64,000 bases of DNA from Candidatus Abyssobacteria bacterium SURF_5 (GTDB lineage Bacteria > Abyssobacteria > SURF-5): NCBI GenBank assembly GCA_003598085.1, contig QZKU01000045.1:1-64000 (forward strand), written 5' to 3'. The translations under genes were made by a program, and so were the position numbers. The notes under the pieces were generated by a model, which made no database searches, had not been told where the DNA came from, and saw only the letters and a program-made list of their open reading frames with translations. Each line of letters begins with the position of its first letter. Within the stretch, counting starts at the first letter, position 1. This document shows, piece after piece, positions 222 to 24,906 of this stretch.

Positions 222-2231
222 TCATGAATCCTTCAGCACCCACAGGCGGTAATCCCCAGACATCATTATGGGTCTGTACTCTGTCAAAAAGTACTCGTAG
301 ATCTCGGGCAGGGAATGTGAGAGGTGAATTTCAGATGCATAAGAGGTCACGGCTACTCGGGGCTTCCTTTGCTCCACACTCATCTTGTACTGGATTATGT
401 CAGCCGGCGTCAGCAAAACGGTCTCATAATAAAACCAGCCCGTAGGATTTTGCCTGTCGCTCAGGAAGTAAAACAGAGAGCCGGTTCCGTCAAGGATGTA
501 TTCATCCGGAGATGTCTGTGAAGCTATGAACCTGAGCGCTCCATTCATCCCGTGCGCCTGCTCCTCCGGCATCACGATCCCCGCCCGCGCCGAATCAATT
601 TCATCAAATCTCGCCGGCGCGATATGGGGCGGGAAAAGCTCTATCTTCACAAAAAAATTCAGCATCGGAAGCCCGAAGAAGGCCGCGATAAACAGAGGAA
701 CAATCGAAGCGGAAATACCCCGCAATAGTTTGTCGCCGAAAAAGACTGATGCTTGCTCTTTCCTCCAAAAATCAACCGAACGACTCAAAAAAACCAACAC
801 CAGAATGACCACCGGAATCATGTTCCATATGAGGTGGTAGGCCTCCATTATGGGATAAAAAGTATGAAATGCCGCTATTGAGTAAACCCATAATCCCAGC
901 AGCAGGTGCGTTCTATTGAGCGCATGCGGTTTCTTCGGTTCTCTGAACTCCTTCAACAGGCAGAAAAATATGCCGATATGTGCCGCAAGCGGCACGTAAT
1001 TCACCACCGAAAATCCCCATTTGCTGTAAATCTGCCCTACCGGAAGCGCCTCCGTCCTCAGATAGAACACCAGCTTGTATGCAAGAAGCAACTCCGTCAA
1101 CCATAAAATACCGAAGAACGCCCACTTGCCAATTTTGTTCACCCTTTTCGTCAGGAACAAAAACCCCTGCAAGAGAAAAACGAGCAACAGCAACAAGCCT
1201 TCCGGCGCCGGTAAAGGCATCGGCTGCAGACGGATTTGTGAATACTTCGACAGCCCCCAAAGAAACCGATCAAAAAACCAGTCAGGTCCTAGCCTATTCA
1301 AAAAATAGGCCGCCCATGGAATTGTAACCAGCAGAAACCCCAGTGCCGAATACAGCATCGGCGCTGGCTTTATTCTGATACTGAGCTTCTTCTTCAGTTG
1401 TAAGCCCAGCAAGCATATTCCCGCCAGAAAAACCAAAAATGCGCTTACGAAGAAAACGGCAATATTCCTCAACAACAGGTCATGCCTGATCAAGACGATC
1501 GAGCCGAATGGCAGCAAGAGCAGAAAGCAAATTGCGACTGCAGAGGAGAAAAGCCTTTGCGGTCTTGATTCATTTGCCGCCTCCGAATCAAACATCCACT
1601 CGAACGCCTCGATGCACAAGAGCGCCGAAAAAGCCAGGACGCCATAGTTGATCTTAAACGAGAAGATCAGACCTGCGACGGCGCCGCCCGCAAAGTAAAG
1701 CGCCGCCGATTTCCTTCTCCAGGCAATATGCTCAATCGAAATCATCAACAGACCCAGCGGGATGCAAAACCAACTCGGATAAGGATAATTTATGGAAACG
1801 GGACCCAAGATGAATGCAAACAGCATCCCGGCCACTGCGACACCTATGCTTGTCAGTTTCTTTGTCAGATGGAAGACCAGGAAGGCGGTAGCCATTCCTG
1901 TGAGTGCGAGAGCAATCCTGACAGCTTGAAGATTGTCTCCTAAAACCTGAAAGAGGAGAGTAATGAGATAATGAGAGGCTGGAGTGTATAAGGAAAAGAA
2001 ATCCCGGTACAACATTTCGCCATGAAGGAGCCGCTCACTGATGTAGATCAGTACCCCGTAATCGCCATCCAGCCACGGAGCACTGCCGTCGGCAACGTTA
2101 TATTGTGCGCCTGTCGCAAAAAGATAGGCAAATGAAAGAAAAAACAAAAAAGTGAGAATGTTCGATTTCGAAATGTTGCCCTTTGCCCTGTTGATTGCTG
2201 CAACCAAGCCCTTGCTGCCTACCCGTGTCAT
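222..2231 (-). CDS. GT39/ArnT-like polytopic membrane glycosyltransferase
   Basis: Integral membrane protein of about 669 residues with a dozen or so hydrophobic segments. Near the first loop it has the acidic pattern DGDYG followed by Y(I)SERLLHGEMLYRDFF, the arrangement seen in PMT/ArnT-type (GT39/GT83) enzymes that take a sugar from a polyprenyl-phosphate donor on the outer face of the membrane. Acceptor and sugar are not deducible. The frame stays open to a GTG at 2285, but an extended -10 promoter (2238-2246) lies inside that extension and ends 6 bases before ATG 2231, so I chose 2231. It diverges from a GT2 (2425) of the type that makes polyprenyl-phosphate sugars, which suggests donor and transferase are paired. 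The exact family is inferred from topology and motifs only. Confidence 0.72.
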   Translation of the reverse strand: MTRVGSKGLVAAINRAKGNISKSNILTFLFFLSFAYLFATGAQYNVADGSAPWLDGDYGVLIYISERLLHGEMLYRDFFSLYTPASHYLITLLFQVLGDNLQAVRIALALTGMATAFLVFHLTKKLTSIGVAVAGMLFAFILGPVSINYPYPSWFCIPLGLLMISIEHIAWRRKSAALYFAGGAVAGLIFSFKINYGVLAFSALLCIEAFEWMFDSEAANESRPQRLFSSAVAICFLLLLPFGSIVLIRHDLLLRNIAVFFVSAFLVFLAGICLLGLQLKKKLSIRIKPAPMLYSALGFLLVTIPWAAYFLNRLGPDWFFDRFLWGLSKYSQIRLQPMPLPAPEGLLLLLVFLLQGFLFLTKRVNKIGKWAFFGILWLTELLLAYKLVFYLRTEALPVGQIYSKWGFSVVNYVPLAAHIGIFFCLLKEFREPKKPHALNRTHLLLGLWVYSIAAFHTFYPIMEAYHLIWNMIPVVILVLVFLSRSVDFWRKEQASVFFGDKLLRGISASIVPLFIAAFFGLPMLNFFVKIELFPPHIAPARFDEIDSARAGIVMPEEQAHGMNGALRFIASQTSPDEYILDGTGSLFYFLSDRQNPTGWFYYETVLLTPADIIQYKMSVEQRKPRVAVTSYASEIHLSHSLPEIYEYFLTEYRPIMMSGDYRLWVLKDS

Positions 2232-2237
2232 ACCGTT

Positions 2238-2246
2238 ATTATACCA
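2238..2246 (-). promoter_or_regulatory. Extended -10 promoter of the GT39-like gene
   Basis: On the minus strand the sequence reads TGG-TATAAT (TATAAT at 2243-2238), a perfect -10 with the TGn extension. No good -35 is visible. The expected start of transcription is about 2231, which is the ATG itself, so the transcript would be leaderless. Confidence 0.5.
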
Positions 2247-2321
2247 TTCACCGCCCGTCCCCCGGATTTGCTCACTCGGCGCCACCCGATCAGATTAGAA
2301 GACAACGTGAAAGCTCCCGAA

Positions 2322-2351
2322 TTGAAATGCCAGCCGATCATTTGCTATTAT
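2322..2351 (+). promoter_or_regulatory. Sigma-70 promoter for the GT2-wecD-wecE genes
   Basis: TTGAAA (2322-2327), 18-bp spacer, TATTAT (2346-2351), about 75 bases before the GT2 start codon. It is back to back with the minus-strand promoter of the GT39-like gene. Confidence 0.5.
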
Positions 2352-2424
2352 AACTGTAACAGGTTCATAGGATTCGTAATAGAAGGCAGAATTGCAGAAC
2401 CCTCCCTCTATGGGTATTGATTGA

Positions 2425-3384
2425 ATGAATCTCTCCGTCGTCGTTCCCGTCTTTAACAGTCAGTTTTCTCTTCCCGAACTCGCTCGCCGATTGGCGCCGG
2501 TCTTGGAAGCGACAGGCGAAAAGTACGAATTGATCCTGGTCAACGACGGCAGTCAGGACCAGAGTTGGAACGTGATTAGGAACTTGGTCGAACAGTACAA
2601 ATGGATACGCGGAATCGACCTGATGCGAAATTACGGCCAGCAGAACGCACTTCTCTGCGGTATCCGAAACGCCCGTCACGAATTCATTGTCACCATGGAC
2701 GATGACCTGCAGCATCCGCCTGAGGAAATCCCGAAGCTGCTCGATAAGCTTGCATCCGGCTTCGATGTCGTATACGGCGCACCGGTCGACGAACAGCATA
2801 CGTTCTGGAGGAATCTCGCTTCGCGCTTTATCAAGCTCATGCTTCGCAAGGCAATGAATGTCGATACAGCCCGCGACGTGAGCGCGTTTCGCGCTTTTCG
2901 GACCGACCTCCGAACTGCTTTTGCCAATTATGAGAGCCCGTTCGTTTCCATAGATGTGTTGCTTGCATGGGGAACCACCCGCTTCGCAGCCGTGGCCGTT
3001 CCTCATCATCCCCGGCGCACTGGCGAATCCAATTACACTCTTGGAAAATTAATCACGCACGGCCTCAACATGACTACCGGTTTCAGCACATTACCGCTCC
3101 AACTCGCAAGCCTCGTCGGTTTTTCCTTTACCTTTTTTGGAGTTCTCATTTTGATATATGTCGTCGGACGCTATCTGATTGAGGGCGGCAGCGTGCCCGG
3201 CTTTCCGTTTTTGGCATCGATAATCGCAATATTTTCGGGAGCACAACTCTTTGCGCTGGGCATTATCGGAGAATATCTCGCCCGGATGTATTTCCGGGCA
3301 ATGGGGCGACCCTCAAGCGTCACCAGGGAAACCGTTGCGGTTTCAGCAAGTCCAAAAGAGGAACAGACAGAACATGCCGGCTGA
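2425..3384 (+). CDS. GT2 polyprenyl-phosphate sugar transferase (ArnC/GtrB/DPM1-like)
   Basis: 319 residues. An N-terminal GT-A fold starts with the VVVPVFN strand and carries the metal/nucleotide motifs VNDGS (about residue 40) and MDDDLQHPPE (about residue 90). The C-terminal quarter has two strong membrane segments (about 230-255 and 265-290). Enzymes of this build transfer a sugar from a nucleotide donor to undecaprenyl (or other polyprenyl) phosphate at the inner face of the membrane. The stop overlaps the next start by 11 bases, so it is translationally coupled to the acetyltransferase and probably cotranscribed with wecE. The ribosome binding site is poor. The sugar may be the amino sugar made by the next two genes, but that is inference. 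Confidence 0.85.
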   Translation: MNLSVVVPVFNSQFSLPELARRLAPVLEATGEKYELILVNDGSQDQSWNVIRNLVEQYKWIRGIDLMRNYGQQNALLCGIRNARHEFIVTMDDDLQHPPEEIPKLLDKLASGFDVVYGAPVDEQHTFWRNLASRFIKLMLRKAMNVDTARDVSAFRAFRTDLRTAFANYESPFVSIDVLLAWGTTRFAAVAVPHHPRRTGESNYTLGKLITHGLNMTTGFSTLPLQLASLVGFSFTFFGVLILIYVVGRYLIEGGSVPGFPFLASIIAIFSGAQLFALGIIGEYLARMYFRAMGRPSSVTRETVAVSASPKEEQTEHAG

Positions 3385-4111
3385 TGTAGCTTTGTCCGCC
3401 ATCGATGAGCAGCGCTTCGGATTCAGGGTCGCCCGCGCATCAAACGTAACCGCAGAAGACCTTCACTCCATCCTCGATTTCTGCCATAAAAAGGAGATCG
3501 TCCTGCTCATTGCCCGCTGTGCGACCTCAGAACTTCGAGCCGCGCAAACTATGGAAGCCCAAGGCTTTCTTTTGATGGATACCCTCATGTACTATCAGCG
3601 GAAATCGTCTCCTGATCAAATTCCGTCTAACGTTGCGGGAGATATCGTCGTTCGCCCGTTCGAGGCGGGGGAGGAGGATGCGGTTGCCGAGATAGCGGCA
3701 AAATCTTTTGAAGGCTACCAAGGTCATTATCATTGTGATGAGAGGCTGGATCCGATCAAATGCAACGAGATTTATACCTCGTGGGCGCGCCGCTCCTGCG
3801 TTGTTCCTAATCTGGCGGATCAGGTGATCATAGCAGAACTGGACGGTGTCGCTGCCGGTTTCGCTACCCTGCGATTAGCGAGCCCCGAGGTAGGCGAAGG
3901 CGTCCTTTTCGGAGTTTCCCCTTCGGCGCAAGGCCGCGGCATCTACCGCTATCTCATGATCGAGGGTATGAAGTGGTGCCTGGACAAACGGGCGGAACGA
4001 ATGGTAGTCTCAACGCAGATCACCAACATCGCGGTGCAGAAGGTTTGGTCTCGCCTTGGCTTCGAACCCAGCTACTCGTCCTACACATTTCACAAGTGGT
4101 TTGATAAGTAA
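3374..4111 (+). CDS. GNAT acetyltransferase, WecD-like (TDP-fucosamine acetyltransferase)
   Basis: 245 residues from ATG 3374, inside the end of the preceding gene; the frame is open further upstream but that part overlaps GT2. The C-terminal half is a GNAT fold: a strand, then a V-SPSAQGRGIYRYLM acetyl-CoA binding motif (about residue 190) and NIAVQKVWSRLGF near the end. WecD acetylates the 4-amino group of TDP-4-amino-4,6-dideoxy-galactose to give TDP-Fuc4NAc. I assign it mainly because wecE, which makes that substrate, follows 50 bases downstream, and because the length and split N-terminal region match WecD. The exact sugar is unproven; another nucleotide amino-sugar acetyltransferase is possible. 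Confidence 0.7.
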   Translation: MPADVALSAIDEQRFGFRVARASNVTAEDLHSILDFCHKKEIVLLIARCATSELRAAQTMEAQGFLLMDTLMYYQRKSSPDQIPSNVAGDIVVRPFEAGEEDAVAEIAAKSFEGYQGHYHCDERLDPIKCNEIYTSWARRSCVVPNLADQVIIAELDGVAAGFATLRLASPEVGEGVLFGVSPSAQGRGIYRYLMIEGMKWCLDKRAERMVVSTQITNIAVQKVWSRLGFEPSYSSYTFHKWFDK

Positions 4112-4161
4112 CACGCGCAGATCCGCCGCAAGGATCTTATTGGGACAGGATAAAATCATCC

Positions 4162-5301
4162 GTGCAGCACATTCCGTTTAATCGCCCTTTCTTCGTCGGC
4201 AAAGAATTCGATTATATCCGTGAAGCCATCGCGTGTGGACATATCTCAGGCGACGGGCCCTTCACCAAGAGATGCAACCAGCTTTTGGAGCGGCTGTTGG
4301 GTGCTCCAAAAGTTCTGCTTACCACCTCCTGCACGCACGCACTGGAGATGGCTTCGGTGCTTCTGAATATTCGGCCCGGCGATGAGGTGATAGTGCCTTC
4401 TTTTACCTTCGTCTCTACTGTCAATGCGTTCGTCCTTCGGGGCGCGCACCCGCGGTTCATCGACATTCGGCCCGACACCCTCAATATGGACGAGAGCCGG
4501 CTGGAAGAAACGATCACGCCGAAAACAAAAGCCGTCGTTCCCGTTCATTATGCCGGAGTAGGCTGCGAAATGGATCCCATTCTTCGCATCGCCCAAAGCC
4601 GCGGGCTTCCGGTGGTCGAGGATTGCGCTCACGGCCTGTTCGGAGAATATCGCGGAAAACCTCTCGGATCGTTCGGGAGCCTGTCAGCCCTCAGCTTCCA
4701 TGAAACCAAAAACGTGATCTGCGGAGAAGGCGGCGCTCTCATTATCAATGATCCGCAGTATGTTGAACGCGCCGAGATCATCCGAGAAAAGGGAACCAAC
4801 CGCAGCCGATTCTTCCGCGGAGAAATCGATAAATACACCTGGGTCGATATCGGCTCCAGCTATCTCCCGGCCGATGTCCTCGCAGCTTTTCTCTATGCCC
4901 AGCTTGAAGCGCGGGAGCGGATACAGGCGATGCGGAAGAGGATTTGGAACACCTACTATGATTCCCTTTCCTCCTGGGCACGGCAGACCGGAATCCGCCT
5001 TCCCGTCGTGCCCAGCCACTGCGCCCATCCGGCTCATATGTTCTACTTGATCGCGCGATCTCTCGCAGAGCGCGATGCTATTATCGCGCACCTGAAAACG
5101 CTTGGGATCAACAGCGTCTTTCATTACGTGCCTCTTCATCTGTCAGAAATGGGAACTGGTTTCGGATATGAGAAGGGGGACTTTCCGGTCACCGAAGACC
5201 TCAGCGACCGCTTGCTGCGCCTGCCGTTTTACAATGAGCTGACCGACGAGGACCAGAAAAGGATCATATCCGCCCTCGCCAGCTTCACTTCCAGCCCGTA
5301 A
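4162..5301 (+). CDS. wecE: WecE-like TDP-4-keto-6-deoxyglucose aminotransferase
   Basis: 379-residue PLP enzyme of the DegT/DnrJ/EryC1/StrS family. It transfers an amino group from glutamate to TDP-4-keto-6-deoxy-D-glucose to give TDP-fucosamine. It follows E. coli WecE closely along its length as I remember it: PSFTFVSTVNAFVLRG, VPVHYAGV, SFHETKN with the PLP lysine (about residue 182), EIIREKGTNRSRFFRG, DKYTWVDIGSSY. The start is GTG 4162. A TAAAAT box ends 5 bases before it, so a leaderless message is possible, although readthrough from the upstream genes is likely too. Its last 17 bases overlap the convergent methyltransferase gene. The substrate needs RmlA and RmlB, which are not in this window. 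Confidence 0.88.
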   Translation: MQHIPFNRPFFVGKEFDYIREAIACGHISGDGPFTKRCNQLLERLLGAPKVLLTTSCTHALEMASVLLNIRPGDEVIVPSFTFVSTVNAFVLRGAHPRFIDIRPDTLNMDESRLEETITPKTKAVVPVHYAGVGCEMDPILRIAQSRGLPVVEDCAHGLFGEYRGKPLGSFGSLSALSFHETKNVICGEGGALIINDPQYVERAEIIREKGTNRSRFFRGEIDKYTWVDIGSSYLPADVLAAFLYAQLEARERIQAMRKRIWNTYYDSLSSWARQTGIRLPVVPSHCAHPAHMFYLIARSLAERDAIIAHLKTLGINSVFHYVPLHLSEMGTGFGYEKGDFPVTEDLSDRLLRLPFYNELTDEDQKRIISALASFTSSP

Positions 5302-6289
5302 CCCGCTGCAAAATATTTTGGACGAATTCGGTTGCAGCAACGTCTCTAAAGCCGGCCTCTTCAAGATATCCGGTCACCTCGGCATCACTATGGGCGCGGC
5401 CTTTGCTGCCCAGCAGCGCCTCGTGTATCGACCAGGTGGCGGCAATCAGGGGACCGGTCTTGTCGTCGTTTAAATTCTCGGCAATTATGTGCATCACCCC
5501 GCCCGGCGGAAGCGCCTGATATGCCCGCCGCGCGATCACCCGCACTTCGTCCGGCCCATATTGGGTCAGGTTGCCGTTCAGCATGATCGCATCCACACCC
5601 TCCAGAAATCTATCGCGGGTGAAATCACCTGGATTGGTCTTTATCCGATCCGAAAGCCCCGAATCCGCGATCAGTTCGTCCGTCACCCGGCAAACATCCG
5701 GGAAATCAAATACGATCGCCCGCAACTGCGGAAATCGGCGGCACAACGCCACGCAATATGCGCCCGACCCCCCGCCCAGATCGAGCACAAGCTTATGGTT
5801 GGAAAAGTCAAACTGTTTCGCCAGCTTGTGCCCCGCCCCCAATCCGACGTTGAACATCGCGCGCGTAAGCATCTCGTGCTGCTCGGGCCCCATCTTTTCA
5901 TATATCCCGAGAACCGACGGCGGCTGAGGGCTCGTAAGACGCTCGCACAGGTTGAGCCAATCGCTGAAGTCGGCTCTTCCCATCAGCGACCACGCACCGA
6001 AATACCGCGGCTTCCCCTCGACCAAATATTCCTCGACGTCGGCGGCATTTACATATTTCCCCTGTTTCTTCTCCAGCAGCCCGAGCGCCGTGCAGGCTAC
6101 AACCATCCGCTCTGCATTCAGCGGCGACAACCCGCACGCCGAGGCGATGTCCTGAATCGTACAAGCCCCTTCAGAAACCTTCGTGAACAAACTCAACTCG
6201 ATCCCTGCCCACAAAATCGCCGAGTGCTTGAATCCGTATACGATGTTCTGTATCCGCTCTGTGCCGATTTTCTTCTTACTATCCGCCAT
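5285..6289 (-). CDS. SAM-dependent O-methyltransferase (COMT/hydroxyneurosporene type)
   Basis: 334 residues from ATG 6289, preceded by AAAGGA. An N-terminal winged-helix dimerisation domain (about 1-100) is followed by an O-methyltransferase family 2 Rossmann domain with the SAM motif LVLDLGGGSGAYC (about residue 170), an acidic strand end VFDFPDV and NPGDF. A catalytic-base histidine equivalent is not obvious: the position normally occupied by H reads NLTQYGPDE. Such enzymes methylate small aromatic or polyketide-like hydroxyls, or are adapted to other methyl transfers. It stands alone between convergent wecE and divergent DUF255, so the context gives no substrate. It overlaps the wecE end by 17 bases. 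Confidence 0.8.
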   Translation of the reverse strand: MADSKKKIGTERIQNIVYGFKHSAILWAGIELSLFTKVSEGACTIQDIASACGLSPLNAERMVVACTALGLLEKKQGKYVNAADVEEYLVEGKPRYFGAWSLMGRADFSDWLNLCERLTSPQPPSVLGIYEKMGPEQHEMLTRAMFNVGLGAGHKLAKQFDFSNHKLVLDLGGGSGAYCVALCRRFPQLRAIVFDFPDVCRVTDELIADSGLSDRIKTNPGDFTRDRFLEGVDAIMLNGNLTQYGPDEVRVIARRAYQALPPGGVMHIIAENLNDDKTGPLIAATWSIHEALLGSKGRAHSDAEVTGYLEEAGFRDVAATEFVQNILQRVTGWK

Positions 6290-6618
6290 TTCCTTTGCCC
6301 CCGTCTTTGAATTAACGCGCAGAAGCCTCCCTGGTGTATAATGGCCGATTATATCACAGACTCTAGCAGCCACCTCGCGCTCATAGAAGGTAGAGTAATT
6401 ACTAGATGATATTTCTGGAGGATATTGTTCAAAGAAAGAAGTGAATAGAAGCGGCTACTTACGTTGTCATTCTGAGGAGCTTTGCGACGAAGAATCTCTT
6501 CTCCCTTTAATTTCGCACGCTCATATCCTGCTCTTCCGCCCCTGTTGACGCTTCTTTTCGGCCGGTGCCAGACTTTATTCGAGAGTTGATGTCCTCAGCA
6601 ACGAAAGGAGTTTCTATC
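6290..6618. other. Intergenic region between divergent genes
   Basis: 329 bases between the methyltransferase and DUF255 starts. Two TATAAT-like boxes are present, one per strand (plus 6337-6342, minus 6353-6348), neither with a convincing -35. An upstream in-frame ATG for the DUF255 gene exists at 6565, but it lacks a ribosome binding site. I see no RNA gene or repeat. Confidence 0.4.
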
Positions 6619-8394
6619 GTGGATAAGATACAGTGGCTGGAGTGGTCGCCCGAGGCCTTTGAGAAGGCGCGCAGGGAGGATAAACTCATCCTGCTTGATA
6701 TCGGCGCCCCCTGGTGCCACTGGTGTCATGTCATGGACGAAGAAGCCTACGGAAATCATGACATCAGAAAGTTGGTTGAGCAACTGTACGTCCCGGTTCG
6801 GGTCGAGTGCGACAAACGGCCGGATATCAATGAACGCTACAACCAGGGAGGATGGCCTACAACAGTCATCATGTCGCATGAGGGATTTGTGGTGCATGGC
6901 GCCACCTACCTGCCGTCCCCCGCACTCAAGGAACTCCTCAAGCAGGCAAAAAACTGGTACGACCAGAACAGAAAGCGGATATCGGAAGCGGCCGGAGTTC
7001 TTGCGACAGAGGCCGCCCGTGTCTCCCCTCTGGCGGCTCCTGAGCCCCATCAAGTGAAAGAGCTTACCAGCGAAATCATCGAAGACATATTGAAAAATTC
7101 CGATCCTGTTCACGGCGGCTTCGGCGACAGCGCAAAGTTCCCGCAAGCCGGTCCGATTTCCCTGGCCTTTGCTCAGTTCTTCCGTACGGCTGACGAGCGT
7201 CTGCTGGCTTTTGCCGAGAAAACCCTGCAAAACATGAGCGCGGGACTCCTGGACAAGGAGGCCGGCGGATTGTTCCGCTATTCGGTGTCGCCTGAGTGGA
7301 ATGAGCCTCACTACGAGAAAAACCTGATTGTAAACGCCGAAAGCCTTCAGAATTACCTCGATGCCTACCGCCTGACAGGCAAAAAAGAGTATGCGGTGAC
7401 CGCGGAGAATATCATTCGGTTCATCACCGAAAAACTCCTGAATCCCGACGGAGGCTTCTCCAACAGCCAGGATGCCGACATCTTTGACGAGCACTCTCTC
7501 CGGATCATTATGGAGGGCGAAACATATTATTCACTGCCTCTTTCAGAACGGCAAAAATACGGCGAGCCGGTTATTGATCGAACGGTATATGTCAATGCGA
7601 GCGCTCGCGCGATTTCCGCTATCCTCGAAGCCTACCACCTTCTGCAAAACGAGAATCTCCGCGAAATAGCCCTCAAAAGCCTGGACTATCTCATGAAGAA
7701 CGCGTTCGACAAAGACAGCGGCGCCCTCCATTACCCGAGCGATGGGAGAAAGGGTACGCCGGCATTTCTTGACGATGCCGTCAGTCTCGCTCGAGCCAAT
7801 CTCGACGCTTATGAGACAACGGCGGATCATGGATACCTCGAAAGCGCAAAAAAGCTGATGGAGGTCGCCCGCGCCAGGTTCGCGGCGCCTGACGGCGGCT
7901 TCTACGATGCCACGCTTGACAGCGATATGCCGCCAGCCACTCAAATCCGGCACAAACCGCTTCACGAAAACATGGCCGCCGTCGAGACTTTCGGCCGCCT
8001 CTATAACTACACCGCAGATTCCGCATATCTCATGATTGCTGCCTCCACTCTTATAAGTTTTGAGCAAAATGTACGCAATTTGCTTGAAAAAGATCTCGGT
8101 TACATGGCAGCCGAATACGCTCTTGCCTTCCAGTTTGCAAGCGACAGATCAACAAAAGTAACCATCGTCGGCTCCGCCAAAGAGGCAAAGGCCCGCAAAC
8201 TTCTTCATGAAGCAAAGCGCCTGTACCGGCCGGCGAAAATTGTGCAATTACTTGATCCATCTAAGGATATACAGCTTATCAAGGCAATGAGATATCCGGT
8301 CGAAGATATTCCTGCGGCACATGTCTGCACAGAAAAGGGATGCGCTCCTCCAATCAGAGACATCGACGAGCTGGCAAAATTGATGATATCCTGA
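6619..8394 (+). CDS. DUF255 thioredoxin-fold / six-hairpin protein (YyaL/SPATA20 family)
   Basis: 591 residues. GTG 6619 is chosen because a strong AAAGGAG lies 8 bases before it; the ATG at 6565 has none. The N-terminal thioredoxin-like domain (about 1-140) carries the diagnostic APWCHWCHVMDEEAY with a CxxC pair. The rest looks like an alpha/alpha toroid of N-acylglucosamine 2-epimerase type, with repeated segments such as GGFSNSQDAD and GGFYDATLDSD. The family is widespread from bacteria to humans and its biochemical role is not established. At roughly 590 residues it is a little shorter than many members (about 650-700). It appears to be a single-gene unit; the next gene has its own promoter. 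Confidence 0.85.
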   Translation: MDKIQWLEWSPEAFEKARREDKLILLDIGAPWCHWCHVMDEEAYGNHDIRKLVEQLYVPVRVECDKRPDINERYNQGGWPTTVIMSHEGFVVHGATYLPSPALKELLKQAKNWYDQNRKRISEAAGVLATEAARVSPLAAPEPHQVKELTSEIIEDILKNSDPVHGGFGDSAKFPQAGPISLAFAQFFRTADERLLAFAEKTLQNMSAGLLDKEAGGLFRYSVSPEWNEPHYEKNLIVNAESLQNYLDAYRLTGKKEYAVTAENIIRFITEKLLNPDGGFSNSQDADIFDEHSLRIIMEGETYYSLPLSERQKYGEPVIDRTVYVNASARAISAILEAYHLLQNENLREIALKSLDYLMKNAFDKDSGALHYPSDGRKGTPAFLDDAVSLARANLDAYETTADHGYLESAKKLMEVARARFAAPDGGFYDATLDSDMPPATQIRHKPLHENMAAVETFGRLYNYTADSAYLMIAASTLISFEQNVRNLLEKDLGYMAAEYALAFQFASDRSTKVTIVGSAKEAKARKLLHEAKRLYRPAKIVQLLDPSKDIQLIKAMRYPVEDIPAAHVCTEKGCAPPIRDIDELAKLMIS

Positions 8395-17050: not shown

Positions 17051-17104
17051 AATAAAAAAGAGCGCCCGACTGGACTCGAACCAGCGACACGCGGTTTAGG
17101 AAAC
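17051..17104 (-). repeat. Left attachment site: tRNA-Arg 3' fragment
   Basis: Identical over 54 bases to 24823-24876. Bases 17062-17104 are the last 43 bases of the tRNA-Arg (whole anticodon loop, variable loop, T arm, acceptor 3' strand). The match ends at 17105. The fragment lacks the D arm and 5' acceptor strand, so it is not a functional tRNA. Confidence 0.9.
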
Positions 17105-17130
17105 GAGACCGTTAAAAACGGCTGATGTGC

Positions 17131-17178
17131 AAACGGCTCGGAGGCTTATAAATAAAGGCTTCTGGGCCGTTTCTTTTT
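17131..17178 (+). terminator. Terminator at the island's left end
   Basis: AAACGGCTCGGAGGC (17131-17145) and GCTTCTGGGCCGTTT (17158-17172) pair along all 15 positions if G-U is allowed, followed by TTTCTTTTT (17170-17178). It would block plus-strand transcription entering from the flank, or from the island's other end when circular. Confidence 0.75.
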
Positions 17179-17216
17179 GGTTTGCGTCGTGTCGTGTCGG
17201 CTCGTGTCGGCGTTTT

Positions 17217-17252
17217 AAGCACACTCACAAGCACACTGGCATGCACACTACT
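17217..17252 (+). repeat. Three tandem 12-bp repeats inside the left end
   Basis: AAGCACACTCAC, AAGCACACTGGC and ATGCACACTACT begin at 17217, 17229 and 17241, exactly 12 bases apart, 113 bases inside the left attachment repeat. Two further units in the same orientation lie inside the right end (24738-24761). Candidate recombinase arm-binding sites. Confidence 0.65.
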
Positions 17253-17361
17253 GGACACATTTTGCAGTTGATTATGGGGTTGATCCATGATAGATTATTT
17301 CTTGTAGTGCTCGGTTCATCAAGCTCCATACATCTGACCAGAAGGGAGAAATCTACTCGGC

Positions 17362-18501
17362 ATGCCATTTGAAATTAAATTTGAACAACTGCCGGGTGGA
17401 TATGTAGTAACTTCCGCTCGTCCTGGCGAGGAATGGGAGATGGAGCTTCGGGGTTTCGTCTCCTCTGAAGATGGCGATGAGCTTGTGGCCAAACTCGAAA
17501 AATTACCTCAGCAGATTCTCTCTATGCTTCCATTCAAGCCGCCTATTCTGCCATCCATGGTAGATTCACTTTTGGCCGTGATTCGGAAGGACAGGACGGC
17601 AACCATATACCTAAATGAGGCGCAATCGGTTATCTTAATTCGCATAAAAGGCTCTTGTGAGAAAGGGGAATTAATAACAAAAAATCGTGTGTTGGATATG
17701 GGGAAAATGAGATTCCCTGGGGTAGATATTCCTCCAGACGCGGCCATCATATACGTCTTTTCTGTAGGTTGGCGCAAAGGGTTCTTCTACGACCTTGAGC
17801 CTCTATATGGAGAAAAAGCCGAACCGCGCGGTTATGACCTTGAGGATGTTCTTGGAAGTCTCTACTCATATCTATCCTTCCAGGAACGGTTCAAGATTGA
17901 CAATAAGACCTGGCAGACCTTCTTTGCGCAGAAATGGTTTCCATTCGTTTACCTCGATGATCAGCTAATCCGCGACATGATATCGCACGCAAGGGCGGGG
18001 TGGCAGATCGATGAACTGCTTCCAAAGGTATCGGCCAACGTGGGACGGCTGCTTGAAACGTCCCCCTTGATTGAGAGGAAGGACTTGGTTTTTGCTGAAC
18101 ATATCGAGATGCTCAAGACATCTGTTGAAAGATATCTCGCAGGCGACCACATTAGCTGCGCTTCAATTCTATACCCGCGCATCGAGGGATTGCTTCGGTC
18201 ATTCCAACGGACCTCTGGATGCACATCCTACCCAACGGCAAAGACGTTGAGCAAAACTGCCGTGGAACACCATCAAACGGCAAGGATATCAGCTTCCCTT
18301 CTTCTTCCGTCGAAATTCAACGAATATCTGGACAATGTCTACTTCGCCCATTTTATACCCGGCTCTGCGCCCGATGTTGGGCGACATTCCGTAGCACATG
18401 GTGAGGCCCGAACGGACGACTTCTCTCTTAAAGCAACTACTGTTGCATTTCTCATCATTTATCAGCTATCGCTGTTCTTCTCGGACGAAAAGAAGAAATA
18501 G
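17362..18501 (+). CDS. Uncharacterised island protein with C-terminal HEPN-like RX4H motif
   Basis: 379 residues; I do not recognise a named family. The N-terminal ~200 residues are mixed alpha/beta with no familiar motif. The C-terminal ~120 residues are helical, with IEGLLR about residue 270 and a FIPGSAPDVGRHSVAHG region. R341-HSVA-H346 fits the RX4-6H motif of HEPN ribonucleases and resembles the NRHxxLHG motif found in many prokaryotic abortive-infection-type proteins. It is the first gene inside the left end of the island, followed by the TIR-like gene in the same direction, so a role in defence is plausible but inferred. The ribosome binding site (AGGGAG, 13 bases away) is weak. A 222-base gap containing a repeat and a promoter separates it from the next gene. 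Confidence 0.6.
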   Translation: MPFEIKFEQLPGGYVVTSARPGEEWEMELRGFVSSEDGDELVAKLEKLPQQILSMLPFKPPILPSMVDSLLAVIRKDRTATIYLNEAQSVILIRIKGSCEKGELITKNRVLDMGKMRFPGVDIPPDAAIIYVFSVGWRKGFFYDLEPLYGEKAEPRGYDLEDVLGSLYSYLSFQERFKIDNKTWQTFFAQKWFPFVYLDDQLIRDMISHARAGWQIDELLPKVSANVGRLLETSPLIERKDLVFAEHIEMLKTSVERYLAGDHISCASILYPRIEGLLRSFQRTSGCTSYPTAKTLSKTAVEHHQTARISASLLLPSKFNEYLDNVYFAHFIPGSAPDVGRHSVAHGEARTDDFSLKATTVAFLIIYQLSLFFSDEKKK

Positions 18502-18542
18502 TGGATTTTCTTTCGGCTCACCTTAATGCGAAGGCCACGGCC

Positions 18543-18649
18543 CCTCCGAACGATGACAAAATCTGCACGAACCATGAAGAAATATGCAGGAAAAATCACG
18601 AAATATCAAGGGGTTGTCGGGGAGTAGGGTTATTGGTCGGTTTTCTGGA
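18543..18649 (+). repeat. Island repeat copy A (about 107 bp)
   Basis: It aligns over its whole length with 20657-20765 at roughly three identical bases in four. Both begin CCTCCGA and end with a GTTATTGGTCG stretch followed by TTTTC. This copy sits after the first gene and directly before the promoter of the TIR-like gene. Confidence 0.7.
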
Positions 18650-18661
18650 ATTCGACCAATC

Positions 18662-18670
18662 TGGTATAAT
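18662..18670 (+). promoter_or_regulatory. Extended -10 promoter of the TIR-like gene
   Basis: TGG-TATAAT (TATAAT 18665-18670), a perfect extended -10, about 50 bases before the start codon and 12 bases past repeat A. The -35 is weak (TTTCTG at 17-bp spacing). Confidence 0.6.
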
Positions 18671-18723
18671 TACGTGCGTTCCGCCTCAGAGCTTTTCAAT
18701 TTGCCAAAGGTAAAGGAGTCATC

Positions 18724-19836
18724 ATGCTTGGCAAAAACGATCTTCATCTGGAGTTGCTTGAGGTTGCCGAGCGCTTGGAACAACTAGCTCAGGAAGGTCA
18801 ACTGCCGGATGTAAAGACACCGTTAGAAGAATTGGAAGGAGCAGCAAATACAGTTGGTAAAGCTTGGAGCGGTTCATGGATCGGATATCAATCGCGTATT
18901 TACTACTCCTACTTCAAGCCTCCGCCACCGGGGGACCATTTTAATTCATGGGCGGGAAGGGCTGATACCGACAATTGGAAAGAAGTCGATAATGAAAAGG
19001 TACAAGAGCGAATTTACGAAAAGGCTGGTAATCCAGACCTTCAGAAGGCCGAAAGAGTTGCAGAAAGGGCTAGAAAGGCCTTTGAAAGCGATAAGCTTGA
19101 AGTCATGTCACTTTTGAATCATGCATTACTGGAGCAAGAGGATTCTTTTCTTGCTCAACTGAAAGATCGAGTTGAAAAAACAAATATCACTTCAAGAATG
19201 GAATTCATTCACGCGCTTCAACCCTCTAAATTTTCTACGCTTGATGTAGTTGCAGGACAACAGGGCATTCAAATTCCTCCTCATTTATCTATACTGTCTT
19301 TAGTTTACTACTTGCGCAATACGATAGAATCATGTGCGAAATTAGGACAATTTGCGCGGAAGGCCGGGTCGCATCTGGCACGGCTACAGCGGCAAACCCG
19401 TCGCTCGCTCGAAATAGGCACCAACGTTTTCATTGGTCATGGTCGTTCTCCGGTCTGGAGGGAGTTAAAGGATTTCGTCCAGGACCGCCTCCACCTCCCT
19501 TGGGATGAGTTCAACCGCATTCCAGTTGCTGGAGTAACCAATGTGGCTCGCCTGTCCGAATTGCTTCAATCGGCGGCAATGGCATTCCTGGTTATGACGG
19601 GTGAGGATGAGCAAGCTGATGGTACTATGAACGCACGGATGAATGTAATTCATGAAGCAGGATTGTTTCAGGGCCGTCTGGGTTTTAACCGGGCAATCAT
19701 CTTACTGGAGGAGGGTTGTGAAGGATTCAGCAACATAGAAGGGCTGGGACAGATACCCTTCCCGAAGGGGAATATCACTGCGGCCTTTGAAAAAGTGCGA
19801 GAAGTCCTCGAAAGGGAAGGATTAATTGTGTCATGA
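18724..19836 (+). CDS. TIR-like domain protein (CAP12/Pycsar-type), probable defence effector
   Basis: 370 residues, good AAAGGAG 5 bases before ATG. The C-terminal ~138 residues match the TIR-like nucleotide-binding domain (PF10137 type): VFIGHGR (235-241), a helix, AMAFLVMTGEDE, then MNVIHEAGLFQGRLGFNRAIILLEEG with E311 at the expected catalytic glutamate, and a final LGQIPFPKGNI. Such domains cleave NAD+ or sense nucleotides in anti-phage systems. The N-terminal ~230 residues have a W(S)GSWIGYQSRIYYSYFKPPPPG motif (about 47-72) and a helical middle; this part is of unknown function and may be the sensor. No cyclase is nearby, so I do not call it CBASS or Pycsar. It is 39 bases from the next gene, so the two form an operon. 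Confidence 0.8.
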   Translation: MLGKNDLHLELLEVAERLEQLAQEGQLPDVKTPLEELEGAANTVGKAWSGSWIGYQSRIYYSYFKPPPPGDHFNSWAGRADTDNWKEVDNEKVQERIYEKAGNPDLQKAERVAERARKAFESDKLEVMSLLNHALLEQEDSFLAQLKDRVEKTNITSRMEFIHALQPSKFSTLDVVAGQQGIQIPPHLSILSLVYYLRNTIESCAKLGQFARKAGSHLARLQRQTRRSLEIGTNVFIGHGRSPVWRELKDFVQDRLHLPWDEFNRIPVAGVTNVARLSELLQSAAMAFLVMTGEDEQADGTMNARMNVIHEAGLFQGRLGFNRAIILLEEGCEGFSNIEGLGQIPFPKGNITAAFEKVREVLEREGLIVS

Positions 19837-19875
19837 GATTTCTGCATTTTAGATAAAAAAGGGCTGAACAAAGAG

Positions 19876-20571
19876 ATGGCGGGTTCCAAGAAATATGAAC
19901 CACCGAAGGCCACAGCAGGGGATTATACGCATACGGTTGTTCGTGCAGGTCTCGGTGCGATTCCTTTAGTGGGCACTGCCGCGACAGAGCTTTTCCGTCT
20001 TGTCGTCGAACCTCCATTGGATCGGCGTCGCCAGGTATGGATGGAAGAGGTCGGGGAGAGTCTCCGAAAGCTGGATGCTGAAAAGGGAGTGCGCCTGGAG
20101 GACCTCCGGGAGAATGATACTTTTATCGATATTGTCCTTCAGGCGAGCCAGGCTGCCATGAGGACCAGCCATGAAGAGAAGCGGAAAGCTTTACGAAATG
20201 CAATCATGAATTCGGCCCTCCCTCATTCGCCCGACGAGGCGCGACAACACTTTTTCATCCGACTAATTGACGAGCTTTCGGCACGGCATCTGCAGGTTTT
20301 AAAAATCTTCCAGGACCCCTTGGAATGGGCAAAAGCAAATAAGCACGATACTCCGATAATAGTGGGTGACAACGAAGATGCGGATTTGGCGCGAAGACTT
20401 GCCTTTCCTGATATGGGTGACGAACGCCCCTATGCTGAGCAAATATGGCGGGACTTGCATGTTCGGGGCTTGGTTAAAAGAGATTCTTTTCAAAGGGTTT
20501 TCGGTCCCGCAAAGAACGAAATAACTGTTATCGCCCATGAATTTCTCCGGTACATCAAGGAGCCGGTCTAA
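19876..20571 (+). CDS. Uncharacterised island protein with hydrophobic Gly-rich N-terminus
   Basis: 231 residues. After a short basic leader there is a hydrophobic stretch AGLGAIPLVGTAATELFRLVV (about 22-42) followed by EPPLDRRRQVWMEEVGESLRKL and FIDIVLQASQAAMRTSHEEKRKALRNAI. I recall this arrangement from uncharacterised bacterial proteins but know no function. The hydrophobic segment could be one membrane-active helix; the rest is helical, with a C-terminal ~70 residues that could be winged-helix-like. It lies 39 bases after the TIR-like gene in the same direction, so the two are likely expressed together, as effector and partner or as two effectors (inference). Its ribosome binding site (AAAGAG touching the ATG) is poor. 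Confidence 0.65.
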   Translation: MAGSKKYEPPKATAGDYTHTVVRAGLGAIPLVGTAATELFRLVVEPPLDRRRQVWMEEVGESLRKLDAEKGVRLEDLRENDTFIDIVLQASQAAMRTSHEEKRKALRNAIMNSALPHSPDEARQHFFIRLIDELSARHLQVLKIFQDPLEWAKANKHDTPIIVGDNEDADLARRLAFPDMGDERPYAEQIWRDLHVRGLVKRDSFQRVFGPAKNEITVIAHEFLRYIKEPV

Positions 20572-20656
20572 TACACAGAAACAGCATTTCAAGCCTCTGT
20601 CCTTTGCAGCCTCCCTCTTGCCGTACTCCCGGTATACTCGAAAGCCAGTCAGGACG

Positions 20657-20765
20657 CCTCCGACCAGTGACGAAATCTCCTCGAATCGTGAAGAAAAAGG
20701 CAGGAAAATTTACGGAATATGAAGGGCTTCTCGTGAAATGGTGGTTATTGGTCGATTTTCCAGGA
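20657..20765 (+). repeat. Island repeat copy B (about 109 bp)
   Basis: The counterpart of 18543-18649 in the same orientation, lying between the ends of the convergent 231-residue gene and the subtilase gene. It is not followed by a promoter, unlike copy A. Confidence 0.7.
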
Positions 20766-20767
20766 GG

Positions 20768-23296
20768 TCAGCCTCTCTTTCGTCTCGCTGGAATTTCAAT
20801 AGTGACCGGTAGCCCAATCTGAACCGCGACGGGTGTGTAAATATCAATATCCTCTTGCGGGGTATAGATAGACACAATCAAGGTGTAACGAGTCCGCCTG
20901 CTCCACCTGTTCAAATGATGCCGTTCCCGCCACCATCCTACAGACGGATAAACAGCGATTAGATTTGATCCGGCTAAATCCGCGGCTCTTCCGTGCCAGA
21001 TATCGGAGTGAATTGAACCTACATTTCTTGCCGCTCCAATGAGCCAATTTCCCCCAATACCTTCCGTGCCAGGATGCTCGCCATCGTCGCGAGCTTGTTC
21101 ATTCACTCGCTGAACAAATTCGCTTTCTGATTCCCCAGGTCCATTCACCTCAAAGCGAAGTCCATGTGAGGCATATCTATATCGATCTTCCCACCCCACC
21201 TCACCTGGACTGGGCTCAATGAAATATGAGAGAGTTATCCGCATCGTAACCTGCATTGCCCCAAGTTCCGTGAGAGTATCCTTGGGCCAAGGAAGGTTGT
21301 AGAGATGCATCTCTCGGGATATGTAGCGGCTTGCTAATTTCCTCGTACCATCACGCCCTATGGATTCCTGAATCTTCTTCTCAAAGGGTGTCAATTCTGC
21401 CTGTGAAATCAAAGTCAAAGAATTAGATAAACAATACAAAGCATCATTTAGCTTGGGTACACCATACCCACAAATTCGCAGGAGTCTTGCGTAATCACTC
21501 TTTGATCCAGCTCCGAGGAACTGCCGCTTAAGAGTGCCTGTCCAACCTGCCGAATGAACAATCAGAGCGCGAATGGTTTCTGGCCAAGCATCCGGATATT
21601 GAGCCTGAATTTGTGCAGCCATCCATGCAGCTTGTGCGCAAGCAGCGCTCGTAGCGCAAAAAGTAGCGAATTGGGCTTCTTGTGGCTTGTAATACGTTGA
21701 AAATAGTTGCAGATCATCCGGACCCATTGCGGAACCATCCGGGCTGCGCGCAACGTTCCCTCCTTCAAAAACAACCTCAGGTTTTATTGGCCATTTTCGA
21801 CTAGGCCATGCGGTCGAAGTAGTACTATAAGGAGATAGTCCTCCAGATGGTGCAATTGGCTTGTAGCCTTTATATGTAGGATCACTGATCCATATCTTTT
21901 CAGTAAACGCTCCAATAGTCAAGGCGTTCCATGCCTGCCCTGGATCATGGACCTCATTTGACAGATTCGCGTCGGAATAGTTTCGCCAATCATCGGAAGT
22001 GCTAACGTTTCCGGCGCTGATTAAGATAAGACGTCGAGTATCATCTTCGTATCCAGAGGCTATCTCGTCCAATTTGGCTGACCAAGAAGATGGCTTGCCC
22101 TGGTCACGGGTTTGCTCGGAGGTGACAGCAATACACCCGATGCGCTTTCGAGTTGGCGCTTGAATCTCTGCAAGACTTATCCCCTGGGCCGTAAAATATC
22201 CCCATAACTCCTTGGCATTCCTGTCAGGCGGTGGTGGCAGTATTTTTGCCGACTCTATGCAATGGGTGATGTTCACGGGAACATCGTGATCAAGAAGAAG
22301 CGACAAATCACCATACGCAGCAGTTCCCGCCATAAGAGTTCCATGACCATCATCATCATTTGTGCCCCAATGTCCACGAACAGCGTGAAGGTCGTCGGGG
22401 TTGAGAACCGGCTGAATCAGCAAGTGCCCATTATTCACACCTGTATCAAGAATACAGACAGCCACATCTGAGTCTCTGTCAACAATTGTACGCGCCAACA
22501 GTCTTTGCACCAACACCAACTGATCGCGGTTATCCATCTGGACGTAAAAAGAAGCTATCTTCTTGGCCCCCCTAAATTCCGCAATGTCGTCCGAGCATTC
22601 AACTAATTGTTTCAGTTGGCTGCGATTCGCCCGAATAAGCATAACTGTTCTCTCTGGAAACTTAAGAATACCTTCTTTCAATTCGCACTTCACACTTCTC
22701 AACAACGGCTCAAAATGAGAGACAACTTGATCTTGGTCGCTGCTCAGCCAGACCTCGACCCAATCGGGGGAATTACCCGGTATAAGAGATCGCTCCTCTG
22801 GACGCCAGAAAGATTCCAAGACGGCAAGGCGAATGTCGTCAATGCTATTCACCAGATTATAATTTTTTGGTCTCTTGCTGCGCTCGTTAATCTCAGTCGC
22901 ATATGCTCTAATTTTACTTAGGAAGTAGCGGCGCTTGTTATTTGGAACGTAGACCGTTGCCAGAGTCCGCTCCAGACCTTGCTCGTCTTGCTTTCGGACA
23001 TTCTGGAGACGAATTCCAGACCGTAACACATCAAGGCTCTGGACAATCAAGTCGAAACCTGGTGTACTTTGAAATTCAATGTATGTACCTTGGCGTTCCA
23101 CGTAAACGGCTGTTCGACGTTGACGTTGGTCAGCTTCAGCCCAAGTCTCATTGAGGCGCTCCTGCAGATGAGCGCTATGCTGTTCTCGGTTTCGTGGTGG
23201 AATCTTTGGAGAGCGGCCCCCTTTATTTGGGCTAGTAAATCCTTGTGTGTGGGTTGGCCCTGCCAAGAATATGTGCCTGTATCGCTCACCAGCCAT
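20768..23296 (-). CDS. ietS: Subtilisin-like serine protease of an IetAS-type system
   Basis: 842 residues, no signal peptide, so cytoplasmic. A ~270-residue N-terminal region of unknown role precedes an S8 peptidase domain with all catalytic elements visible: Asp284 (VCILDTGVN), His318 (DDDGHGTLMAG), oxyanion Asn430 (ISAGN) and Ser550 (CATSAACAQAA). The Ser motif has ATS-AA in place of the usual GTSMA/GTSFA. The C-terminal ~200 residues are beta-rich. The AAA ATPase gene ends 6 bases upstream on the same strand. An AAA ATPase next to a cytoplasmic subtilase is the published layout of IetAS, a plasmid stability/toxin-antitoxin-like locus also reported as an anti-phage system. Naming rests on domain pair and order, not on an alignment. 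Confidence 0.78.
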   Translation of the reverse strand: MAGERYRHIFLAGPTHTQGFTSPNKGGRSPKIPPRNREQHSAHLQERLNETWAEADQRQRRTAVYVERQGTYIEFQSTPGFDLIVQSLDVLRSGIRLQNVRKQDEQGLERTLATVYVPNNKRRYFLSKIRAYATEINERSKRPKNYNLVNSIDDIRLAVLESFWRPEERSLIPGNSPDWVEVWLSSDQDQVVSHFEPLLRSVKCELKEGILKFPERTVMLIRANRSQLKQLVECSDDIAEFRGAKKIASFYVQMDNRDQLVLVQRLLARTIVDRDSDVAVCILDTGVNNGHLLIQPVLNPDDLHAVRGHWGTNDDDGHGTLMAGTAAYGDLSLLLDHDVPVNITHCIESAKILPPPPDRNAKELWGYFTAQGISLAEIQAPTRKRIGCIAVTSEQTRDQGKPSSWSAKLDEIASGYEDDTRRLILISAGNVSTSDDWRNYSDANLSNEVHDPGQAWNALTIGAFTEKIWISDPTYKGYKPIAPSGGLSPYSTTSTAWPSRKWPIKPEVVFEGGNVARSPDGSAMGPDDLQLFSTYYKPQEAQFATFCATSAACAQAAWMAAQIQAQYPDAWPETIRALIVHSAGWTGTLKRQFLGAGSKSDYARLLRICGYGVPKLNDALYCLSNSLTLISQAELTPFEKKIQESIGRDGTRKLASRYISREMHLYNLPWPKDTLTELGAMQVTMRITLSYFIEPSPGEVGWEDRYRYASHGLRFEVNGPGESESEFVQRVNEQARDDGEHPGTEGIGGNWLIGAARNVGSIHSDIWHGRAADLAGSNLIAVYPSVGWWRERHHLNRWSRRTRYTLIVSIYTPQEDIDIYTPVAVQIGLPVTIEIPARRKRG

Positions 23297-23302
23297 TTGG
23301 CA

Positions 23303-24271
23303 TTAACCTTTGTGTTTTCCGTGCGAGCTTTGTCGTTCCTTCAACATTTGTAGTAGCAAGGTTGCCTTCACCTTTCCCAAATCAGCAAGGATAACTTCTT
23401 TAATGGCGTCTCGGCAGGCTTGGTCAATCTCTGCATGACTCAACCCTTCACTTTCGGCAAGCACGCTCTTCCACGCAAATCGTGAAGCCAAGAAACTTCC
23501 CAGTACGTTTTGCATCAAACGTCGCCGTTCGTTTTCTTTTGGCTGGTCATAGTAAAGAACGTCATCGAAACGTCGAAACAATGCTCGATCCAAGAGTTTT
23601 GGGCTATTCGTAGCGGTAATGATTAGGCTATCAGAAACATCCTGCTCGATGAATTGCAGAAATGAATTCAGAACACGGCGCATCTCTCCCACATCATTTT
23701 CTAAAGTCCTCTCACCGCCAATCGCATCGAATTCATCGAATAAGTACACCCCAAGGTCCCTCTGAACCAAGTCAAAAATCTGGCGGAGCTTTGCACTTGT
23801 TTCTCCCATAAATTTAGTTACCAGTCGATCCACCTGAATTGTATGGAGCGGCATGCGAAGCTCGTGTGCCAATACGCGCGCAGACATTGTCTTTCCCGTT
23901 CCTGGCGGGCCAACAAGCATAATTTTCCGGCGAGGCATTAGACCGTGCTCTTTGAGTTTCTGCCTTTGCCTGTACTCGTGGATTATTCGTTTTATTCGCT
24001 TCTGTAAGGCAAGGGGTAAAACCAAGGTCGCCTGAGAAACGTCCGGTTCCCCCGACAGGACAAGTCCCCGCAAATCTTGCGGAAACTTTAAAAGTGTGAG
24101 CCTATTTTCGCTGCGCGCTTCATCAACCATTTTGCGGATATCATGAGCCAGCGCGCCATGTCCCTGCTGAGCCTCGTATGCTGCAACCTGAAGTGCAATA
24201 GTGTAAAAACGTTCCGGGTCCTCACTGAAATGACACCTTATCAATGACTTGATCTGTTCCGCAGTTGCCAT
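23303..24271 (-). CDS. ietA: AAA+ ATPase of an IetAS-type system
   Basis: 322 residues. A helical N-terminal region (about 1-90) is followed by an AAA+ core: Walker A GPPGTGKT (121-128), pore-loop-like KFMGET (about 153), Walker B YLFDEFD (176-182), sensor 1 TATN (219-222) and arginine finger region LFRRFDD (about 231). A short C-terminal lid carries SEGLSHAEIDQACRDAIKE. It belongs to the family of single-AAA proteins that pair with subtilases. The likely role is ATP-driven control or substrate feeding of the protease encoded 6 bases downstream. It is transcribed inward from the right end of the island. The upstream 90 bases show no clear consensus promoter. Confidence 0.82.
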   Translation of the reverse strand: MATAEQIKSLIRCHFSEDPERFYTIALQVAAYEAQQGHGALAHDIRKMVDEARSENRLTLLKFPQDLRGLVLSGEPDVSQATLVLPLALQKRIKRIIHEYRQRQKLKEHGLMPRRKIMLVGPPGTGKTMSARVLAHELRMPLHTIQVDRLVTKFMGETSAKLRQIFDLVQRDLGVYLFDEFDAIGGERTLENDVGEMRRVLNSFLQFIEQDVSDSLIITATNSPKLLDRALFRRFDDVLYYDQPKENERRRLMQNVLGSFLASRFAWKSVLAESEGLSHAEIDQACRDAIKEVILADLGKVKATLLLQMLKERQSSHGKHKG

Positions 24272-24822
24272 AAGATTCTCCGAATTTCTTTTCGCTAGCT
24301 CATGCGCGACTGCAAATGTCTATGTTCAAAGTGTACTTGATTTGCTGAAGATTATCAAATTATTAGAGGTACAGGCGAATGGAATCATTTCATACGGCTC
24401 CTACACCCCACCTTCCTGATGCCTATGCATCATCCATTGTGAATTGGATCAGGTTCTGCTATCTTCTCCGCAGATGGACACGACGCCTTATAGAAGACAT
24501 CCGACCACCTCGATGCAACATAAGCGGCTGTGTCAGCAGCGGCTGTGTCAGCATCAGCCTTCACATCTTCCTCTGTCGGCTCCTGTGCCCACAGGCGGAC
24601 ATTCTGCACCCTTGCCTCTCTCTTTGCCTCTAGGAAGTCCTCCTGATACTTCATTCGGCGGGAATGTTCCGCGATGCCGGTCTGAAGACGGCTGCACTGA
24701 AGCAAGGGGTTTATTCAGAGAGGCTTGGAAATGAAACAAGTACACTGACAAGCACACTCGTCCATTTTCCCACCAACCAAGAAAAATCTGCCGAGCTCAC
24801 AAATAAAAATAGGGCAAAGAAT
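24272..24822. other. Right end of the island, no convincing gene
   Basis: 551 bases between ietA and the right attachment repeat. It holds a 15-bp tandem duplication of GCGGCTGTGTCAGCA (24524-24538, 24539-24553) and the 12-bp units listed separately. A 91-codon minus-strand frame (24705-24430) starts with TTG and has no ribosome binding site; I do not call it. An integrase would normally be expected here; none is recognisable, though a decayed remnant cannot be excluded. Confidence 0.5.
24738..24761 (+). repeat. Two tandem 12-bp repeats inside the right end
   Basis: AAGTACACTGAC (24738) and AAGCACACTCGT (24750) have the same 12-base period and orientation as the units at 17217-17252, and lie about 61 bases inside the right attachment repeat. 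Confidence 0.65.
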
Positions 24823-24876
24823 AATAAAAAAGAGCGCCCGACTGGACTCGAACCAGCGACACGCGGTTTAGGAAAC
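24823..24876 (-). repeat. Right attachment site overlapping the tRNA-Arg 3' end
   Basis: The 54-bp copy identical to 17051-17104. Bases 24834-24876 belong to the tRNA gene; 24823-24833 are the A-rich tail downstream of its 3' end. Confidence 0.9.
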
Positions 24877-24906
24877 CGCTGCTCTATCCTTCTGAGCTAC
24901 GGGCGC
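24834..24906 (-). tRNA. tRNA-Arg (anticodon CCU)
   Basis: Read on the minus strand, a complete cloverleaf: acceptor GCGCCCG / CGGGCGC, D arm GCTC...GAGC, anticodon arm GCGGT-TTCCTAA-ACCGC with anticodon CCT, a 5-base variable loop, and T arm with TTCGAGT. 73 bases without a discriminator base; CCA is not encoded. The base after the acceptor would be T, unusual for a bacterial tRNA-Arg discriminator, followed by CTTTTTT, which may end transcription. The integrated island lies against its 3' end. Confidence 0.93.

Follow-up and report, generated by a model that had tools for sequence, protein, structure and literature searches.

The 7.8-kb block at positions 17051–24876 of the window (the whole 64,000-nucleotide stretch of DNA analysed here) is most probably a decayed, CIME-like integrative element that has retained its att ends and is immobile unless a matching integrase arrives. 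An ancestor carrying its own tyrosine integrase would have inserted site-specifically into the anticodon-loop/3′ half of tRNA-Arg(CCU), thereby rebuilding the tRNA while an orphan fragment remained at the far end. In this ancestor the integrase gene would have adjoined the tRNA, and the right-hand arm sites would have overlapped the 3′ end of that gene, as they do in an element of a sister genus. We infer a deletion event and a loss of mobility: the deletion would have taken the integrase except for roughly the last 45–55 codons, perhaps together with replication genes, so that two att ends would now enclose an IetAS, TIR, HEPN-motif and Abi-like cargo. The host would now inherit the block vertically as a defence island, and movement would be possible only if a matching integrase were supplied, either in trans or by a kin element that inserts in tandem.

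Boundaries and composition of the island

Perfect direct repeats of 54 bp are located at 17051–17104 and 24823–24876, exactly where the earlier note had placed them. The copy at 24823–24876, the att core on the tRNA side, consists of the 3′ 45 nt of tRNA-Arg(CCU) followed by 9 nt downstream. The tRNA gene itself, the integration target, is intact at 24832–24906 on the minus strand as called by ARAGORN, and has orthologues beside the same APRT gene in the sister-genus genomes G001 and G002. The copy at 17051–17104, the orphan-side core, is a tRNA 3′ fragment in which ARAGORN calls no gene, in agreement with the claim that one repeat completes the tRNA and the other is an orphan. No third copy was found in the 5.1-Mb host genome. 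An exact repeat of 54 nt is not attributable to chance.

The G+C content is 47–50% inside the block and about 54% outside, consistent with the A+T-richer segment that had been described. The GC3 values of the five cargo genes (0.44–0.52) are the five lowest among 43 window ORFs tested, showing that codon use is not uniform. Nor is the cargo universally present in the lineage: searches of two sister genera returned no match to genes 1 and 2, and for IetA nothing but generic AAA ATPases of 30–33% identity. The cargo is foreign in composition and patchy in distribution. ARAGORN also called a 98-nt tRNA-Ile(GAT) at window nt 50574–50671, inside a 367-aa ORF on the opposite strand; this call is probably a false positive.

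Arm-type sites at both att ends

Each att core is accompanied by an array of short arm-type sites. Three sites of the form AWGCACACT lie at 17217–17249, and two of the form AAGYACACT lie at 24738–24758, all on the plus strand. The left and right sites share the pattern AWGYACACT, the 12-bp spacing and the orientation. Across 386 genomes the paired pattern was found three times, always in the two ends of this island. A hairpin with a T-run, probably a terminator, lies beside the orphan core at 17131–17172 on the plus strand (z −6.8), and is retained with compensating base changes on contig C90 of G002. With 54-bp cores and arm-type arrays on each side, both att ends appear intact.

These arrays bear on the notion that the repeats arose by a chance or unrelated duplication or reflect an assembly artefact, the block then being ordinary chromosome. 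It is true that tRNA fragments are common in genomes and that the assembly is a draft. The paired arm arrays already contradict such an origin, and the matched arrays on both sides, the conserved hairpin, the integrase remnant described below, the same architecture in G002 and the foreign GC3 of the cargo make it extremely improbable.

An integrase-bearing element at the orthologous tRNA

In G002, probably Ca. Abyssobacteria SURF_17, the orthologous tRNA-Arg on contig C79 lies beside the same APRT, sigma-factor and SppA genes, and is accompanied by an intact 370-aa tyrosine integrase ending about 20 bp from the tRNA. The last codons of this integrase gene hold two arm sites, GGGCACAAT-TTC-GGGCACAAT, read as GTISGTI. 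On contig C90 an orphan core is followed by the hairpin and then by three sites, GGGCACAAT/GGGCACAGT/GGGCACACT, with 11-bp spacing. The shared arm sequence suggests that C79 and C90 hold the two ends of one element.

The C79 element and the present island use the same tRNA-Arg site and agree in the order of tRNA, two arm sites and integrase tail, in strand and in spacing. They differ in that the C79 element has an intact integrase, a Prim-Pol/DnaB-like gene and another arm sequence (GGGCACAAT versus AAGCACACT in the island), whereas the island has neither gene and carries other cargo. The two-end plan of the island also appears in G002. Contig C79 covers the integrase-bearing element from 512 to 7462, including the Prim-Pol/DnaB-like gene and two genes without a Pfam match, and stops before the far end. 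On C90, two tRNA-Arg fragments (3068–3117 and 4042–4109) enclose a 0.9-kb MNT/HEPN-like toxin–antitoxin pair beside the arm-bearing att end; this segment looks like a mini CIME in tandem.

Arm sites encoded within the 3′ end of an integrase gene look recurrent among the sequences compared. A [GS]Txx[GS]T tail is present in 7 of a pool of 76 integrases of this broad family, compared with 0.08 expected after shuffling, some of the 7 being near-identical.

A close relative with an empty site was sought through the neighbouring SppA gene. Its nearest relative is on QZKI01000097.1, and from the lineage only G002 was returned; neither a full-integrase relative nor an empty tRNA-Arg site was found. 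G001 keeps the tRNA-Arg orthologue adjoining the same APRT gene, on a contig that stops 300 bp past the tRNA and is thus uninformative here.

Probable remnant of the integrase at the right end

The earlier note had found nothing for mobility in the block and had proposed 24272–24822 as the place to look for a tyrosine recombinase. The cargo indeed carries no recombinase domain. However, a putative remnant of a tyrosine integrase C-terminal tail lies within that interval, together with the arm-type sites, in the plus-strand frame 24664–24822. The frame reads MFRDAGLKTAALKQGVYSERLGNETSTLTSTLVHFPTNQEKSAEL onward, and its aligned part (24673–24795) matches residues 326–366 of the G002 integrase (DADLRVAAEKHAAYLGEKVTPTGTISGTIAVFPAKRENHAQ) with 34% identity in tblastn (E 3e-5 for a search within the 24664–24822 stretch). 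The alignment is ungapped over 41 aa, extending through and past the arm sites. Strand, distance from the tRNA and frame through the two 12-bp-spaced arm-type sites all agree with the intact G002 integrase.

The remnant scores 63, whereas the highest score among 1000 dinucleotide-preserving shuffles was 46. When the window was cut into 1796 six-frame fragments, none matched the G002 integrase better (E 0.03), and a reverse search with the remnant across all of G002 has the tail of that integrase as its sole match (E 0.15). No integrase similarity was detected upstream in 24272–24640, indicating that the catalytic domain has been lost along with its tyrosine. Profiles built from more diverse integrase tails did not single out the remnant, because integrase tails diverge fast, and searches of phage and plasmid collections returned unrelated matches only, or none. 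The case for the remnant is cumulative, built on position, strand, frame, arm sites and score together. The integrase was probably deleted to roughly its last 45–55 codons. Of the two possibilities left by the earlier note, loss of the integrase gains support from this remnant, which is in the right place, strand and frame.

The residues in front of the arm sites are weak when taken alone: their score is reached by 9 of 1000 shuffles against the last 60 aa of the integrase and by 116 of 1000 against the whole protein. This weakness would suit a different history, in which the island never had its own integrase but was captured when recombination with the ends of another element left it between two tRNA fragments. 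The tail-like frame would then be a chance reading of arm-site DNA; arm sites, as DNA elements, could yield similar residues in the same frame. Such a capture is very unlikely, as the ungapped 41-aa alignment runs beyond the arms at an equal spacing from the tRNA and none of the 1000 shuffles reached its score. Moreover, taking the ends of another element would still amount to a loss of that element's integrase.

Search for a helper in trans

The other possibility, that the island is moved in trans like a satellite, finds no support in the host genome. The only tyrosine recombinases found there are an XerC-like gene (after topA), an XerD-like gene and a frameshifted XerA-like gene, none of which resembles a cognate integrase. 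The arm sites have no further occurrence in this genome, nor any outside this element in the 386 genomes. The host genome is a draft of 5.1 Mb in 145 contigs, 98.5% complete, so that an integrase elsewhere in it is still conceivable. The frameshifted XerA-like gene occupies nt 81–937 at the end of contig C132, with a fragment of a DNA methylase nearby.

The exact arm pattern had no match in IMG/VR viral contigs. A looser pattern was found in 41 viral contigs, three of which have a distant integrase nearby. Two of these three seem to be duplicates of a single locus in which the site runs opposite in sense to the gene, and therefore no inference was drawn from them.

Mobilization in trans is possible, as both att ends look intact and would serve as substrates, but no enzyme for it is visible. 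On this basis the island could be an att-only hitchhiker kept by selection, moved by kin integrases at the same tRNA-Arg, be it in trans or, once accretion has placed the elements in tandem, in cis, with the tail kept as an attachment site. The coherent arm sites at each of the two ends, the presence at the same tRNA, in a sister genus, of an element with an integrase and the tandem tRNA fragments on G002 contig C90, of the kind that accretion leaves, are consistent with this. Against it, no cognate integrase was found in the host, the arms of the G002 element (GGGCACAAT) are not those of the island (AAGCACACT), and the island is the single such element in 386 genomes, with no exact arm match in viral contigs. 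We consider the hitchhiker unlikely, and give an equally small chance to its fuller form, an actively maintained, integrase-free defence carrier in a candidate phylum, which would draw its recombinase from kin elements at tRNA-Arg and keep tail and arms as its att site. If true, defence cargo could be exchanged without an enzyme of its own.

Relation to known kinds of element

A CIME is an element without integration and transfer genes that has kept attL and attR (PMC5704250). CIMEs of Streptococcus salivarius measure 1.2–13 kb, and are thought to be mobile only after accretion of a helper (PMC7563491). A decayed element of the preferred kind resembles them in several ways. It retains attL and attR, in the form of the 54-bp cores and the arm-type arrays at both ends; these ends flank cargo at the 3′ end of the target gene, and its size is within the classical 1.2–13 kb. 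Its integration/excision genes are gone, the C-terminal integrase tail alone remaining beside a cargo without a recombinase domain. None of the five cargo genes has a relaxase or transfer domain, and any transfer genes of the ancestor would have gone as well. In contrast, CIMEs have been described mainly in streptococci, whereas the island belongs to a candidate phylum and carries defence cargo; no conjugation genes are known in its relatives, and no accretion partner was seen in the genome. Descent from a conjugative ancestor (an ICE or IME) and movement by accretion, two further marks of a CIME, would be hypothetical for the island, and it is therefore called CIME-like, not a CIME proper.

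With phage satellites (PICI and others) and tycheposons (PMC11389934, PMC10872708) the island shares its small size, its cargo, its place in a tRNA gene and a possible dependence on a helper. Yet satellites and tycheposons carry their own recombinase together with regulatory, replication or packaging genes, and no recombinase, regulator, replication or packaging gene was recognised in the cargo of the island, which does not qualify as either. Gene loss followed by dependence has been proposed as a route to hitchhiking elements (PMC11389934).

The island most probably represents a known kind of stranded, decayed mobile element. What is added is the integrase tail with its overlapping arm sites, which decides most of the question of loss versus movement in trans. 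It shows one origin of an integrase-less defence island: a deletion can reduce the recombinase to a stretch that also serves as attachment-site DNA, since its gene overlaps the arm sites at the 3′ end. In any genome, a search for such tails next to orphan tRNA fragments offers a simple test of whether an island has decayed or lacked an integrase from the outset. The findings also document tRNA-Arg(CCU) as an integration hotspot in, probably, Ca. Abyssobacteria.

Cargo genes

The cargo comprises five genes, the number given in the earlier note, which had ascribed defence-type domains to all of them. For IetA, IetS and TIR the assignment is solid; gene 1 shows a motif only (R-x4-HG) and gene 3 a sub-threshold Abi_alpha similarity. 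Judged by these domains, the cargo would serve in defence.

Genes 4 and 5 are adjacent on the minus strand. Gene 5 (23303–24271) encodes a 322-aa IetA-like AAA ATPase (PF00004, 8e-29; PADLOC IetA, 1e-72), and gene 4 (20768–23296) an 842-aa IetS-like subtilase (PF00082, 3e-59; PADLOC IetS, 2e-26). The known IetAS anti-phage system (PADLOC, NCBIfam) has an IetA AAA ATPase next to an IetS S8 peptidase, and in this the two genes resemble it. They differ from it in falling far below the NCBIfam equivalog cut-offs, with 64.7 of 900 and 210.6 of 510 bits, and hence represent a divergent IetAS.

Gene 2 (18724–19836, plus strand) encodes 370 residues with a C-terminal TIR domain of the CAP12/Pycsar type (PF10137, 66.7 bits, cut-off 24.7). 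Gene 1 (17362–18501, plus strand) encodes a putative HEPN-type protein of 379 aa that has no Pfam match above the cut-off and fits no database family. Homologues in Rubrobacter, rhizobia and further genomes share a C-terminal EIEG...sR[HN]sxxHG pattern, in which the R-x4-HG motif is conserved across other phyla; its R-x4-H motif resembles that of HEPN nucleases, which suggests the assignment. Single-sequence structure models of genes 1 and 2 reached mean pLDDT values of 35 and 39, too poor for a structure search.

Gene 3 (19876–20571, plus strand) encodes a 231-aa protein with weak similarity to Abi_alpha (E 0.03, below the cut-off). Neither gene 1 nor gene 3 has relatives in viral contigs. 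Genes 2 and 3 are bracketed by direct repeats of 104 bp with 79% identity, at 18543–18645 and 20657–20760 on the plus strand, of which G000 (the host genome), G001 and G002 hold no other copy. The repeats are possibly the scar of a two-gene module (TIR plus Abi-like) inserted into the island. They were also considered as integron attC sites, a reading rejected in view of the only two genomic copies and of the lack, by eye and by folding, of attC core boxes or a shared palindrome.

Homologues of gene 3 occur on plasmids of several phyla. The one on pVEu of Vibrio europaeus (nt 2956–3585) lies amid DUF3265 reading frames of the kind that mark integron cassette arrays, indicating that the Abi-like gene also travels as a cassette.
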